From contig JAFCGC010000002.1 of the NCBI GenBank assembly GCA_017608305.1, positions 1-53,268 of the forward strand: a stretch of DNA of 53,268 bases, written 5' to 3'. The notes below the pieces were generated by a model. It was not told the DNA's origin. It did no database searches and was given only the letters and a program-made list of their open reading frames with translations. Positions 1-34,156 of this stretch are shown here, piece by piece (the first letter of the stretch is position 1; each line of letters opens with the position of its first letter). A program made the position numbers and the translations under genes. Source of the stretch: Candidatus Pacearchaeota archaeon (GTDB taxonomy: Archaea; Nanobdellota; Nanobdellia; Pacearchaeales; GW2011-AR1).

Positions 1-721
1 CCTTGGAAAACTTTTGTCCTAAAAAGTGTGTTGAAGGTTGTTGTAGTAATTTTGAGTCAGGCATTAATACATCTGAAGCGATTGAATAAACTGATCCTGG
101 AAAATGATCCCAATTTGGTCTTTTCATTACCAGAGAAGGAATTCCAAATTTCTGATGCATGACTTTTTCTGTTATTTGAATGTCTTCTTTAACTTGTTGT
201 TGTGCTTGTTTTTCTGTTGCAAAACAATCATGTCCTTCTATCCACATAAATTCTCTTGCTCGAATTAAGGGTCTTGTTGCTTTTGTTTCATATCTGAAAA
301 TATTTGCCCTTTGATACATTTTTAATGGAAGATCTCTCCATGATCTTATCCATATAGAATACATCTCATACATCGATGTTTCAGAGGTAGGTCTTAGTGC
401 TAATTTGTCTTCTCCTTTTATTTTTTCAAGCCAAAAAACATCTGGTGAAAATCCTTTAACATGAGAAGATTCTTTTTTGAAATTTTTTTCAGGAATTAAT
501 GTAGGAAAAAAACTTGGTTTGTGTCCTGTTTTTTGCATTTCTTCTTCATAGAGTTTATACATGTTTTCAATAGTCATTGCTCCCCACGGCCTTATTACTA
601 TGAATCCCTTAACTTTATTTCTTATGTCTGTGACTTCTGCTTTTTCAATAACTTGAGTATACCACTCACTAAAATTTGTTTCTTTTTTTGCGGTTATTCC
701 TTGAGTAGTTATTTTTTTCAT
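1..721 (-). CDS. proS: Proline--tRNA ligase (5' part of gene; runs off window start)
   Basis: Reverse-strand translation MKKITTQGITAKKETNFSEWYTQVIEKAEV...FIVIRPWGAMTIENMYKLYEEEM...RPTSETSMYEMYSIWIRSWRDLPLKMYQRANIFRYETKATRPLIRAREFMWIEGHDCFAT; class II ProRS motifs. Confidence 0.93.
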   Translation of the reverse strand, partial: MKKITTQGITAKKETNFSEWYTQVIEKAEVTDIRNKVKGFIVIRPWGAMTIENMYKLYEEEMQKTGHKPSFFPTLIPEKNFKKESSHVKGFSPDVFWLEKIKGEDKLALRPTSETSMYEMYSIWIRSWRDLPLKMYQRANIFRYETKATRPLIRAREFMWIEGHDCFATEKQAQQQVKEDIQITEKVMHQKFGIPSLVMKRPNWDHFPGSVYSIASDVLMPDSKLLQQPSTHFLGQKFSK

Positions 722-1578
722 ATTAATTCTTTTTCTAAAACATCTAAAGCAATTTCATTTACAGCATCTTTTAGATAATTGCTTTCGAGTGCAAATCCTA
801 GGCTTTCTCCTCCGCTTATTTTAAAATTGTTTATTCCAATGACTTTTCCTTGTTTGTCTATTAGTGGGCCACCTGAATTTCCTGGATTAAGAGCAGCATC
901 TGTTTGAATATATGCTTCTAATTGGCTAGGTCCGATTCTATGAACTCCTGAAACAATTCCTTCTGATACACTAAATTGTAATCCTAAGGGATTTCCTATT
1001 GCAATTACTTTTTCACCTATTTCTATATTATCTGAGTCTCCTAGGCTAAGTTCCTCAAAGATTCCTGGAATTTTTAATACTGCAATATCTAATCTCCCTT
1101 CATATCCTATAAATTCTGCTTCTAGAATTTCTTGCTCATAAGTTATTGCTTGAACTTTTTTTGCATCTACTAAAACATGGGCGTTTGTTAAAATATATCC
1201 ATCTTGGGTTATTAGAAATCCTGTTCCTTGGCCTACGTCTGTTCTTATTGTGACAACCCCTTTTACGGCATTTTCAATTATCCCAGAAAAATCCTCGCTT
1301 GCAGAGGCTTTTAATAAATCCATTTCCTGGCCAATTGACCCTACTTTTAAATTTAAAGTAGTGATTGTGCTTTCTAGGTTTGATTTAGTGTCTATTAAGT
1401 TGTCTGTTAGGGTATTTATGTTGCTTTCTGTATTTGTGACTCTTTGATCTAAAGAACCATATTGAACATTTTGTTTTATAAATAAAGTGTACATGAATAT
1501 TCCGCTGACTATCATAAAAACAAATACAATTGACCCTGCACTTCCAATTATGATCTTATGGTGTTTTTTAAGTGGCAT
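718..1578 (-). CDS. HtrA/DegP-like trypsin-family serine protease with N-terminal TM anchor
   Basis: GTGFLITQDGYILTNAHVL, DIAVLKI, NPGNSGGPLID motifs (His/Asp/Ser triad); N-terminal hydrophobic segment. Confidence 0.9.
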   Translation of the reverse strand: MPLKKHHKIIIGSAGSIVFVFMIVSGIFMYTLFIKQNVQYGSLDQRVTNTESNINTLTDNLIDTKSNLESTITTLNLKVGSIGQEMDLLKASASEDFSGIIENAVKGVVTIRTDVGQGTGFLITQDGYILTNAHVLVDAKKVQAITYEQEILEAEFIGYEGRLDIAVLKIPGIFEELSLGDSDNIEIGEKVIAIGNPLGLQFSVSEGIVSGVHRIGPSQLEAYIQTDAALNPGNSGGPLIDKQGKVIGINNFKISGGESLGFALESNYLKDAVNEIALDVLEKELI

Positions 1579-1657
1579 TGAAAACCTCCTGCGGGTTTTC
1601 GATCCAGCATCCTGGAGTTTCTTTTGATACCTCCTAGGGAAACTCGATGAAATCCTT
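1579..1657 (-). promoter_or_regulatory. Structured 5' leader (copy A): stem + possible pseudoknot + SD-sequestering hairpin upstream of the HtrA-like gene
   Basis: Reverse strand GAGTTTC...GAAACTC stem (1615-1621/1639-1645); loop GGUAUC (1626-1631) complementary to GAUGCU (1606-1611); GAAAACC-CGCAGGA-GGTTTTC hairpin (1580-1600) covering AGGAGG next to ATG. Similar copy at 33973-34050. Confidence 0.6.
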
Positions 1658-1694
1658 TTTGGTTATTAATAATAAAATATTAACATATAAAAAC

Positions 1695-1826
1695 CTAATC
1701 TTTTATTTTCTTAAGATATCCTCTAACCCTTTCACTTCCTATTTTTTTTAATTTTTGTTTTAATTTTTTGTCTATTCTGATAAGATAAATTTCAGGATAA
1801 TTCATCTTTTTTTCTTTTCCAGTCAT
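1695..1826 (-). CDS. Small basic protein (43 aa), possible ribbon-helix-helix/antitoxin-like
   Basis: MTGKEKKMNYPEIYLIRIDKKLKQKLKKIGSERVRGYLKKIKD*; below the ORF-track length cutoff. Confidence 0.4.
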   Translation of the reverse strand: MTGKEKKMNYPEIYLIRIDKKLKQKLKKIGSERVRGYLKKIKD

Positions 1827-25465: not shown

Positions 25466-27493
25466 TTACATCCTCTGAACATAACCTTTTCTTGGTTTAA
25501 AGATTTCTGAGTTGATTACTAATTTATTTATTGCTTCATCTATTTCTTCTTTGGTCATTTTATCTTCAAGCTCTTTTTCGATTTCTTCTATTGGAATTAG
25601 TTTTCCTAATCTGTTTTCTAGTTCAATTATTGTGTCTTTTACTGTGAATATTCTACTTCTTTGTGAACTAGAAAATTTACTTCCTATTCTGTCTATGTCG
25701 ATTGTTTTTGTTTCATAATCATATCCTACTTGCATTAAATAATATTTCATTATTTCTATCGCATTTCTTGCATCTTCCACTAAAACAGTATTGCTGAGTC
25801 TTATTTTTGCTGAGGCTTCTGCCATTCTTATTAAAGCTTGTAATTGTCTTGCTGAAATGGGAATTGGCCTCATTGCACTTTCAGATGCTACTGGTTTGTT
25901 TCTTAAATCAACGTAAAATGTTTTTATTTCTTCAACTGCTTCATTACTTAGAGTTGGTTTGATTCTTTGTTTTGCATAAGCAACATATTTTCTAAAAATT
26001 TCTCTTGGAATAAACATTTCTTCTCCTGTTTTTTGATGTTCTAATAAGACGTGGGTCGCTATTTTTTCATCTTTGTCTTTGTCTGGAATATCTCTTAGAG
26101 TAAAAATTATGTCAAATCTATTGATTAATGTTGGAGGTAAGTCAATTTGTTGGGCAACTGATTGATAGGGGTCAAATCTTCCGAATTTAGGATTTGCTGC
26201 TGCTAATACAGATGTTTCTGCTCTTAAAGTGGCTTGAACATTAGCCTTACTTATTGTGATTGTTTGTTGTTCCATTGCTTCATGCATGGCTGATCTATCT
26301 TGAGGATCCATTTTTTCTAATTCATCTATACATACAAGGCCTTTATTTGCTAGAACCATTGCTCCTGCTTCTAGGCTCCAACCCCTTAGATATTCATCTC
26401 TTACTACTGTTGCTGTAAGTCCTGCTCCTGATGCGCTTTTTCCAACAACATATCTTCCTTTTGGAGAAATGCTTGCCATAAAGGTCAATGTTACGGATTT
26501 TGCTACACCAGGATCCCCTATTAATAAAATATGAATGTCTCCTCTGCTTTTTTGTCCATCTGCATGAGTTTTTTTTACCCCACTAAATAATTGAAGAACA
26601 AGAGATTTTTTTATTTCTTCATAACCCCATACACTAGGGGTTATACTTTTTGCTAAGTTTTTAAAGATTTTCGGATCTTGAGATAATTCTAGGATTTGTC
26701 TTTCATCTTCTTCTGAAATATCAAGCTCTTCAAAACTCTCTTCTAAAGGAATGAGATTGTTTGACTCAATTGCTAATTCAAATCTTGTTGATAGTCCTCC
26801 TGTACTTAGAGGTACAGGAACTTCTTTTAAAACACCAATCACCTTTATTCTGCTACCAGGAGTTGTTTTTTCTTCCATTCTTGGTTCAACTAAATCTTCT
26901 TTTACAAAAGTGTTTATTCTTTTTGGTTGTTCTCCTCCTGATAAAGATTCAGGAGCTTCTTCTATTACTAGTCTTTGGGTATCAACCATTTCTTTACTTA
27001 TTAATTTAAAACCACCTCTTCTTCCACAGGAGCACCTCATTGGTTCTCTGAATTTTTTTTCCATTTGTAATACCCCTATAACTGTTCCACAACTAGGACA
27101 CTCAAATTTTGCATTGACTACTTGGGGCCTTACATCAGAAGCCTGTCTTATAATTCCTTCCACAACAATCATCTCATTAAGATGTTTAGAACGAATATTT
27201 CTTACTTTTATTTCTTGAGATTTTGGGAGATTGTACAATCTCACTCTGACATTACTTACTAATCCTGATTCTTCAATAGCAAGTTCGACTAATCTTAGAA
27301 TTTCTTCAGGGTTATTTAAAATTTCTTCAGAGAGAACATTAGAAAATTCAGTTAAACTCATAAAATCAATGTAGATTACATTTTTTCCTTTTCTTAAAGA
27401 ATCTCCAATATTTTTTTTATAAAAATTAAAAAAGTTTTTTGCTTCAATTAATAATTCCTCTTGTTTTGGTTTTGTGTCTTGTGCATCCCCCAT
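25466..27493 (-). CDS. mcm: MCM replicative helicase
   Basis: LIGDPGVAKS Walker A, GLVCIDELEKM Walker B, NRFDIIFTLRD; N-terminal zinc motif CPSCG...CSCG. Confidence 0.96.
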   Translation of the reverse strand: MGDAQDTKPKQEELLIEAKNFFNFYKKNIGDSLRKGKNVIYIDFMSLTEFSNVLSEEILNNPEEILRLVELAIEESGLVSNVRVRLYNLPKSQEIKVRNIRSKHLNEMIVVEGIIRQASDVRPQVVNAKFECPSCGTVIGVLQMEKKFREPMRCSCGRRGGFKLISKEMVDTQRLVIEEAPESLSGGEQPKRINTFVKEDLVEPRMEEKTTPGSRIKVIGVLKEVPVPLSTGGLSTRFELAIESNNLIPLEESFEELDISEEDERQILELSQDPKIFKNLAKSITPSVWGYEEIKKSLVLQLFSGVKKTHADGQKSRGDIHILLIGDPGVAKSVTLTFMASISPKGRYVVGKSASGAGLTATVVRDEYLRGWSLEAGAMVLANKGLVCIDELEKMDPQDRSAMHEAMEQQTITISKANVQATLRAETSVLAAANPKFGRFDPYQSVAQQIDLPPTLINRFDIIFTLRDIPDKDKDEKIATHVLLEHQKTGEEMFIPREIFRKYVAYAKQRIKPTLSNEAVEEIKTFYVDLRNKPVASESAMRPIPISARQLQALIRMAEASAKIRLSNTVLVEDARNAIEIMKYYLMQVGYDYETKTIDIDRIGSKFSSSQRSRIFTVKDTIIELENRLGKLIPIEEIEKELEDKMTKEEIDEAINKLVINSEIFKPRKGYVQRM

Positions 27494-27744
27494 ATTAAAA
27501 CAACCTACGGTTTTTTTAGATTTTCCCTTTTATTTAATGTGAACTGAATCTTTAAATGCCTTCCAAGGATTCAGATATTACACATCACCGAACTTCTAGT
27601 TTTTATAGATTTATATGCACTGAAAAAGAGTTTTGAAAGGAAATAGTCATTTGAAAGGGGTGGAATGAAATTATTTTGAAATAATGTGAATAAACCGAAA
27701 AATATATAAATTATAACAATTATAATATTTATAAGGATTATAAA

Positions 27745-33405: not shown

Positions 33406-33972
33406 TCATAATATGCTTTTGGGGTGGTCACAAGAAGGACATATTTCAGGAGGTTGAGTTCCATAAAATGTATAACCACACTCTCTGCATACCCACCAAA
33501 CTTCCTTTGATTTTTTAAAAAAAGTATCGTTTTTTACTTGTTCTAATAATTTTTTATATCTCTCTTCATGATTTTTTTCAGCAATTGCAATAGACCTTAA
33601 TCTTTTTGAAATTTCAGGTAAATTTTCTCTTTCTGTTATTTCTGCAAATTCTGGATACATTTTAGTGTGTTCATAATTTTCCCCATTAATTGCTGCTTGT
33701 AAATTGTCTTCTGTTGTGCTGTAAACAGTTGGTGCAACTGCTTCTACTGTAATTTCCTCATCAGCCTTTTTTCCTAGTTTTTTTTTGAGCTCTTGAATAT
33801 GTTCAAATAATCTTTTTGCATGAACTTTTTCTTGATCTGCTGTCAATAGAAATATTTCTGCTATTTGTTCAAATCCTTCTTTTTTTGCAATTTTCGCATA
33901 ATATGTATATCTATTACGAGCCTATGATTCACCTATGAATGCTTTTGTTAGGTTTTTTAGAGTTTGTTCCAT
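33406..33972 (-). pseudogene. Rubrerythrin with in-frame TAG at codon 17 (33922-33924)
   Basis: MEQTLKNLTKAFIGES*ARNRYTYYAKIAKKEGFEQIAEIFLLTADQEKVHAKRLFEHI...; conserved diiron and C-terminal rubredoxin (CRECGYTFYGTQPPEICPSCDHP) otherwise intact. Confidence 0.9.
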
Positions 33973-34050
33973 ATCAAAACCTCCTGCGGGTTTTAATGAA
34001 TCCAACATCCAAAGGAATCTTTTCTGATGCCTCTGATAAGATCCAAGTGA
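33973..34050 (-). promoter_or_regulatory. Structured 5' leader (copy B) upstream of rubrerythrin
   Basis: GGATCTT/AAGATTCC stem (34038-34044/34014-34021), loop GGCAUC (34026-34031) complementary to GAUGUU (34004-34009), AAAACC-CGCAGGA-GGTTTT SD hairpin (33976-33994). Confidence 0.6.
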
Positions 34051-34156
34051 TTAAGTAATATAATTATGGTTTAAATAAATTTTGGTGAAAATGATTTCAT
34101 AGGGAATTATTTTGGAATATCTAAATGCTTTTAAATAACCTCTCTCTTTTTTTTTG

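Follow-up and report, generated by a model that had tools for sequence, protein, structure and literature searches.

A palindromic pseudoknot element of archaea as the probable source of Shine-Dalgarno leaders in a Pacearchaeota genome

In a Candidatus Pacearchaeota genome, the gene of an HtrA-like protease is preceded by a structured leader carrying a Shine-Dalgarno (SD) sequence. What is this leader, and how would it have come to stand there? The locus lies in a stretch of 53,268 nucleotides, hereafter the window. The original prediction placed there, at 1579-1657 of the minus strand, a P1 stem followed by an AGGAGG hairpin, and considered that such a leader stood out among mostly leaderless genes. 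Direct reading bears out the layout, and an SD-bearing structured leader is indeed present in a genome whose genes are mostly leaderless. One base separates the terminal hairpin from the ATG (1576-1578, minus strand). The SD sequence is partly occluded by base pairing, with the GG of AGGAGG in the stem and the remainder in the loop. With the SD divided equally between loop and stem, an initiating ribosome has to unfold the hairpin, which may thereby temper initiation. No known class had been recognized in this leader and, indeed, an Rfam search over the whole window returned nothing at the gathering threshold and nothing meaningful at E<=5. As argued below, the leader is quite probably a copy of a small, dispersed, pseudoknotted palindromic insertion element of archaea, thanks to which a leaderless gene became SD-led, with its SD held in a hairpin.

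Copies in the window, in the genome and across archaea

The leader before HtrA (element A) has a second copy (element B), as had been claimed, located before a rubrerythrin gene. Element C, before the MCM gene, is a third, variant copy (type 2), in which the same P1 hairpin is followed by AAAAGGGAAAATCTAAAAAAACCGTAGGTTGTTTT. The features are collected in Table 1.

Table 1. Positions of the three elements, of their promoters and of the downstream genes in the window
Feature	Position	Strand	Basis
Element A, P1 hairpin, stem GAGTTTC/GAAACTC, loop with family motif GGAGGY	1615-1645	-	sequence; covariation over 10 copies
Element A, middle strand GGATGCTGGA; GCT within pairs with terminal loop	1603-1612	-	pseudoknot pair counts, 44 cores
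Element A, terminal hairpin GAAAACC-CGCAGGA-GGTTTTC	1580-1600	-	model R2 match 1578-1612, 48 bits
Shine-Dalgarno AGGAGG: AGGA in loop, GG in stem	1585-1590	-	sequence
HtrA-like trypsin-fold protease gene	718-1578	-	Pfam Trypsin_2, 1.3e-34
HtrA promoter stretch TTAGGTTTTTATATGTTAATATTTTAT, upstream of insertion	1672-1698	-	27 bases identical to relative L304
Element B: P1 (34014-34044), middle GGATGTTGGA (34001-34010), hairpin ATTAAAACC-CGCAGGA-GGTTTTGAT (33973-33997), ATG 33970-33972	33970-34044	-	
TTTATTTAAAC, probable TATA region ~24 nt upstream of element B	34069-34079	-	sequence; analogy with S10 promoters
Rubrerythrin gene downstream of element B	33406-33972	-	Pfam Rubrerythrin 2.9e-36 on read-through
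Element C, type 2: P1 (27544-27574), AAAAGGGAAAATCTAAAA (27514-27531), hairpin AAAAAACC-GTA-GGTTGTTTT (27497-27516)	27493-27583	-	R1 match 36.3 bits, E 2.3e-7
MCM promoter ATATAAATCTATAAAAAC, upstream of element C	27599-27616	-	same box directly before ATG in many relatives' element-free MCM genes
MCM replicative helicase gene	25466-27493	-	Pfam MCM 3.4e-91

Hairpins of the form AAACC-N7-GGTTT number 6 in the window, whereas base-shuffled windows yield 0.12, each site being counted on both strands since the pattern is symmetric. In the 720-kb genome, the core pattern CCCGCAGGAGG has 9 exact occurrences, and model R1, built from ten copies, finds 17 copies at E<0.001, including the third copy of the window. 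Homologues thus extend beyond the first two, and also beyond this genome. The pattern GGWTGCNGGA-N1-14-AACCCGCNGGWGGTT, scanned in one-per-species GTDB genomes, places the core in at least 118 stretches, almost all archaeal. Among the matches listed, the spread is broad, covering DPANN and DHVE2/Thermoplasmata; the lineages include Pacearchaeota, Nanoarchaeota, Woesearchaeota, Aenigmatarchaeota, Diapherotrites, Micrarchaeota, DHVE2/Aciduliprofundum, Hydrothermarchaeota, Bathyarchaeota and others, single lineages being possibly mis-binned as these genomes are mostly MAGs. Of the 56 genomes in the order to which the window belongs, 17 contain the core, and within a single genus the count varies, with 16, 15 and 0 copies. 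A single match in viral contigs, inside an ORF, was taken as chance, and so was the match in the sole bacterial contig (L100). No description of this element was found in the literature, and the family is apparently unrecorded.

Codon 17 of the rubrerythrin gene (33922-33924, minus strand) is an in-frame TAG. When it is read through, the product has GES-X-ARNRYTYYA at this point and otherwise matches Pfam Rubrerythrin. As no pylS turned up in the genome (84% complete), this codon is likely a nonsense mutation or an assembly error.

Structure and covariation

The element is about 38-90 nt long, with a core of 38 nt made of a single-stranded middle, GGWTGC-X-GGA, then a 9-bp hairpin with the 7-nt loop CGCNGG-W. 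In this Pacearchaeota genome, the covarying hairpin P1 usually precedes the core. Over ten copies, P1 is 89.9% paired against 77.7% in shuffles, with 11 double-change cells against 3.7, and its loop motif persists even though the stem varies. For the core, 44 distinct sequences were considered (A4). The hairpin together with a pseudoknot between the middle and the terminal loop has 94.7% of its cells paired, as compared to 80.4% in shuffles and 33-52% in slid controls, and double changes amount to 81 against 24.7 in shuffles.

The supported pseudoknot joins GC-X of the middle with the terminal loop CGCNGG-W. The pair formed by the middle base X and the last loop base W is UA in 31 cores and AU in 11, and the m1:l3 pair (a G or C of the middle with loop position 3) is GC in 40 and CG in 3. 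Two further variants fit the same scheme, one with CC facing CGG and A:T at X:W (L203), the other with G:C at X:W (L223). The shuffles leave the relatedness among cores in place; both X:W states are nonetheless found in several distant lineages. By contrast, the pseudoknot first proposed, in which GGUAUC of the P1 loop would pair with GAUGCU of the middle, finds no support in the ten copies (78.3% paired against 76.1% in shuffles), its covariation being reached by 313 of 500 shuffles.

Whether these pairings are selected in the sense RNA was considered through wobble pairs. On the sense strand, 31 G.T were counted against 46 A.C. Wobbles being no commoner than A.C mismatches, they give no sign of selection on the sense RNA, and a DNA palindrome is an equally possible alternative.

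Empty and filled promoters

Most relatives have no leader at HtrA, MCM and S10, and the TATA region of these genes lies some 20-30 nt upstream of the ATG. The HtrA promoter stretch shared with L304 is followed there by the ATG about 9 nt later, and here about 95 nt later, element included. For MCM, about 29 relatives are without the element, and the box ATATAAATCTATAAAAAC has been kept upstream of element C in the gene of the window. With S10, the element lies between promoter and ATG in 6 of 28 genes, two of type 1 (this genome and G072) and four of type 2. A type-2 element also stands before HtrA in G086. The same gene may carry an element in different genera, as seen before MCM in three genomes and before S3ae in two. 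The relatives compared belong to other genera, so that the empty sites at the HtrA, MCM and S10 promoters are between-genus comparisons; they are, like the family, its structure and the positions of its copies, direct observations. Finally, the 3′ end of the 16S RNA of the genome, GGATCACCTCCT, contains the anti-SD CCUCC. Being intact, it makes the SD usable.

These comparisons point to a likely scenario. A copy of the element landing downstream of the TATA promoter of a leaderless gene, ahead of its start codon, would become its 5′ UTR. The old promoter would then transcribe the element, and promoter comparison indeed suggests that transcription starts upstream of it. The GGAGG of the element, whose end lies some 8 nt upstream of the ATG, would act as SD, and initiation would shift from the leaderless to the SD-led mode. 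Translation of the gene would likely be set, and perhaps tempered, in cis. A concrete route from leaderless to SD initiation in archaeal genes would thereby be at hand, with matched empty and filled promoters visible.

In the S10 leaders of this genome (L029/L015) and of G072 (L247), an ATG at the expected transcription start opens a short upstream frame ending inside the element. Translation may formerly have begun, leaderless, at this ATG, and ribosomes may now reinitiate at the SD.

Location of the copies and origin of the leaders

Copies are far from being restricted to leaders. Predicted tRNA introns contain 19 of 125 copies, most of them in antisense orientation to the tRNA, against 103 of 33459 random places (0.3%); the introns were predicted with ARAGORN, long introns allowed, and individual calls may be wrong. 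An ATG is found 3-7 nt downstream of 18 of the 125 copies, against 615 of 35100 random places (1.8%). A direct repeat of at least 13 nt abuts the stem end in 13 of 125 copies, against 153 of 35100 (0.4%), four of these 13 corresponding to tandem arrays. The tRNA-associated duplications, of 20-23 bp, reach from the T-loop as far as the 3′ end of the tRNA. As for mobile repeats, the copies are multiple, gene-less and dispersed, with 17 in this genome, up to 16 elsewhere and none in many; target-site duplications occur in this minority only, and no clear one flanks element A, B or C. At L179, L071, L115 and L188, the core is repeated in tandem, with a period of roughly 38-54 nt. One copy (L086 against L036) interrupts a type-2 hairpin. 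Taken with the empty sites, these features lead us to infer mobility by transposition.

The regulatory function first envisaged, that of a riboswitch or an RNA thermometer whose SD hairpin is opened or closed by a ligand or by temperature, would agree with an SD located in a covarying hairpin associated with a covarying pseudoknot, and with a P1 loop motif that remains constant on a variable stem. However, the same core also occurs in tRNA introns, behind tRNA genes, in tandem arrays and, in antisense orientation, just past stop codons, where control of an SD would be meaningless. Moreover, the downstream genes (HtrA, rubrerythrin, MCM, DnaG, NDK, S10) belong to no common pathway, Rfam has no match, the sense-strand wobbles are outnumbered as stated above, and the element is patchy between congeneric genomes and missing from most orthologous promoters. 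A dedicated riboswitch or thermometer is therefore very improbable. The start-adjacent copies invite another reading, since they seem to favor translation and replication genes, including S10, S3ae, S19, L4, L11, L23, EF1A, aIF2-gamma, MCM and DnaG. The element might be the binding site of one RNA-binding protein or sRNA coordinating growth genes, and have spread as a regulon-building module. The presence of elements at MCM, S10 and S3ae in at least two genera each, in some cases with differing 3′ modules, goes in this direction, and the recurrence before MCM and S3ae could reflect conserved regulation or a shared regulator. Yet the same genes run without the element in most relatives, and the apparent gene bias may only reflect tolerance, making such a regulon rather unlikely.

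The antisense copies call for a third consideration. In this genome, they begin 0-5 nt behind stop codons, as would be expected of a 3′-end or processing hairpin working in both orientations, held by selection and not mobile. In two genera (L203 in G073 and L223 in G063), a probable ftsZ is directly followed by an antisense element with compensatory pseudoknot changes, which speaks for the same idea. It would nevertheless leave the duplications, tandem arrays, tRNA introns and empty promoters unexplained, and is improbable. On present evidence, a dedicated riboswitch is not indicated, and the data argue for a new family of small archaeal palindromic pseudoknot elements, exapted here as SD leaders. 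In this respect, structured leaders found genome by genome can be repeats rather than riboswitches, which calls for caution.

How does an insertion element of this kind compare with known systems? The preQ1-II and SAM-II riboswitches are translational, with an H-type pseudoknot and a sequestered SD. Element A resembles them by its pseudoknot and SD hairpin immediately before the start codon, but differs by the lack of an Rfam match and of a common pathway, and by many copies without any SD role. REP/RAYT and IS200/IS605 hairpins are likewise imperfect intergenic palindromes, possibly recognized single-stranded. However, the archaeal element has no linkage to a Y1 transposase and makes duplications, which IS200/IS605 transposition is not known to do. 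A likeness to the palindromic elements of Rickettsia (RPE) and to MITE-like palindromic repeats is also apparent, as these are short, multicopy, gene-less palindromes scattered over a reduced genome and inserted within or next to essential genes. RPEs measure about 150 bp and are inserted in frame in ORFs (PMC10969869). In contrast, the archaeal element has a 38-nt core with a covarying pseudoknot, favors tRNA introns, tRNA 3′ ends and start codons, and occurs in many archaeal lineages. Finally, integration of archaeal plasmids in tRNA genes and mobile tRNA introns (PMC3293823) also involve insertion in tRNA genes, duplicated tRNA pieces and intron gain; here, the insert is not a plasmid but a hairpin of 40-80 nt, mostly antisense in the intron. 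The element thus adds a small family common to DPANN and Thermoplasmata-related lineages, which also populates tRNA introns.

Candidates for an enzyme moving the element were sought in the genomes. Clustering of 863 ORFs from the neighborhoods of the copies gave housekeeping genes only. A Y1 transposase is present in 6 of 10 genomes with copies and in 5 of 10 without, no core was found at Y1 loci, and the presence of a tyrosine integrase has no link with copy number. Neither among these ORFs nor at the Y1 loci did an autonomous transposon with the same ends as the element turn up. Beside the core, a guide-like complement of at least 6 nt to the target, mostly at tRNA T-loops, occurs in 12 of 115 copies against 5.3 in shuffles (maximum 11 in 200 shuffles), which is suggestive only. 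It is tempting, though doubtful at this stage, to imagine an undescribed class of archaeal mobile elements, in which a pseudoknotted ssDNA or RNA hairpin would be transferred enzymatically to the T-loops and introns of tRNA genes and to start-codon regions. Some tRNA insertions would carry the target-complementary strand beside the core, and the conversion from leaderless to SD initiation would have been repeated across DPANN and other archaea.

Composite forms deserve mention. In two copies of this genome (L001/L027 and L026), an insertion of 45-50 nt with its own hairpin (AAGAGTAGAT...CTACTCT, then AGCTGGTT) separates the middle from the terminal hairpin. The nrdR-like and dnaG leaders (L014, L018) have their upstream flank in common, including a degenerate second copy (GAGGTTTATCTGGTCCTTGAATGGATCTAAGCTTTGAGG), which shows that a composite unit was copied recently. 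Lastly, type-2 modules (AAAGGAAAGTTTGATAA with a AACCTTGGTT hairpin) are themselves repeated at L197-L201 (G073) and L086, where they contain type-1 cores; a second element family nests there with the first.
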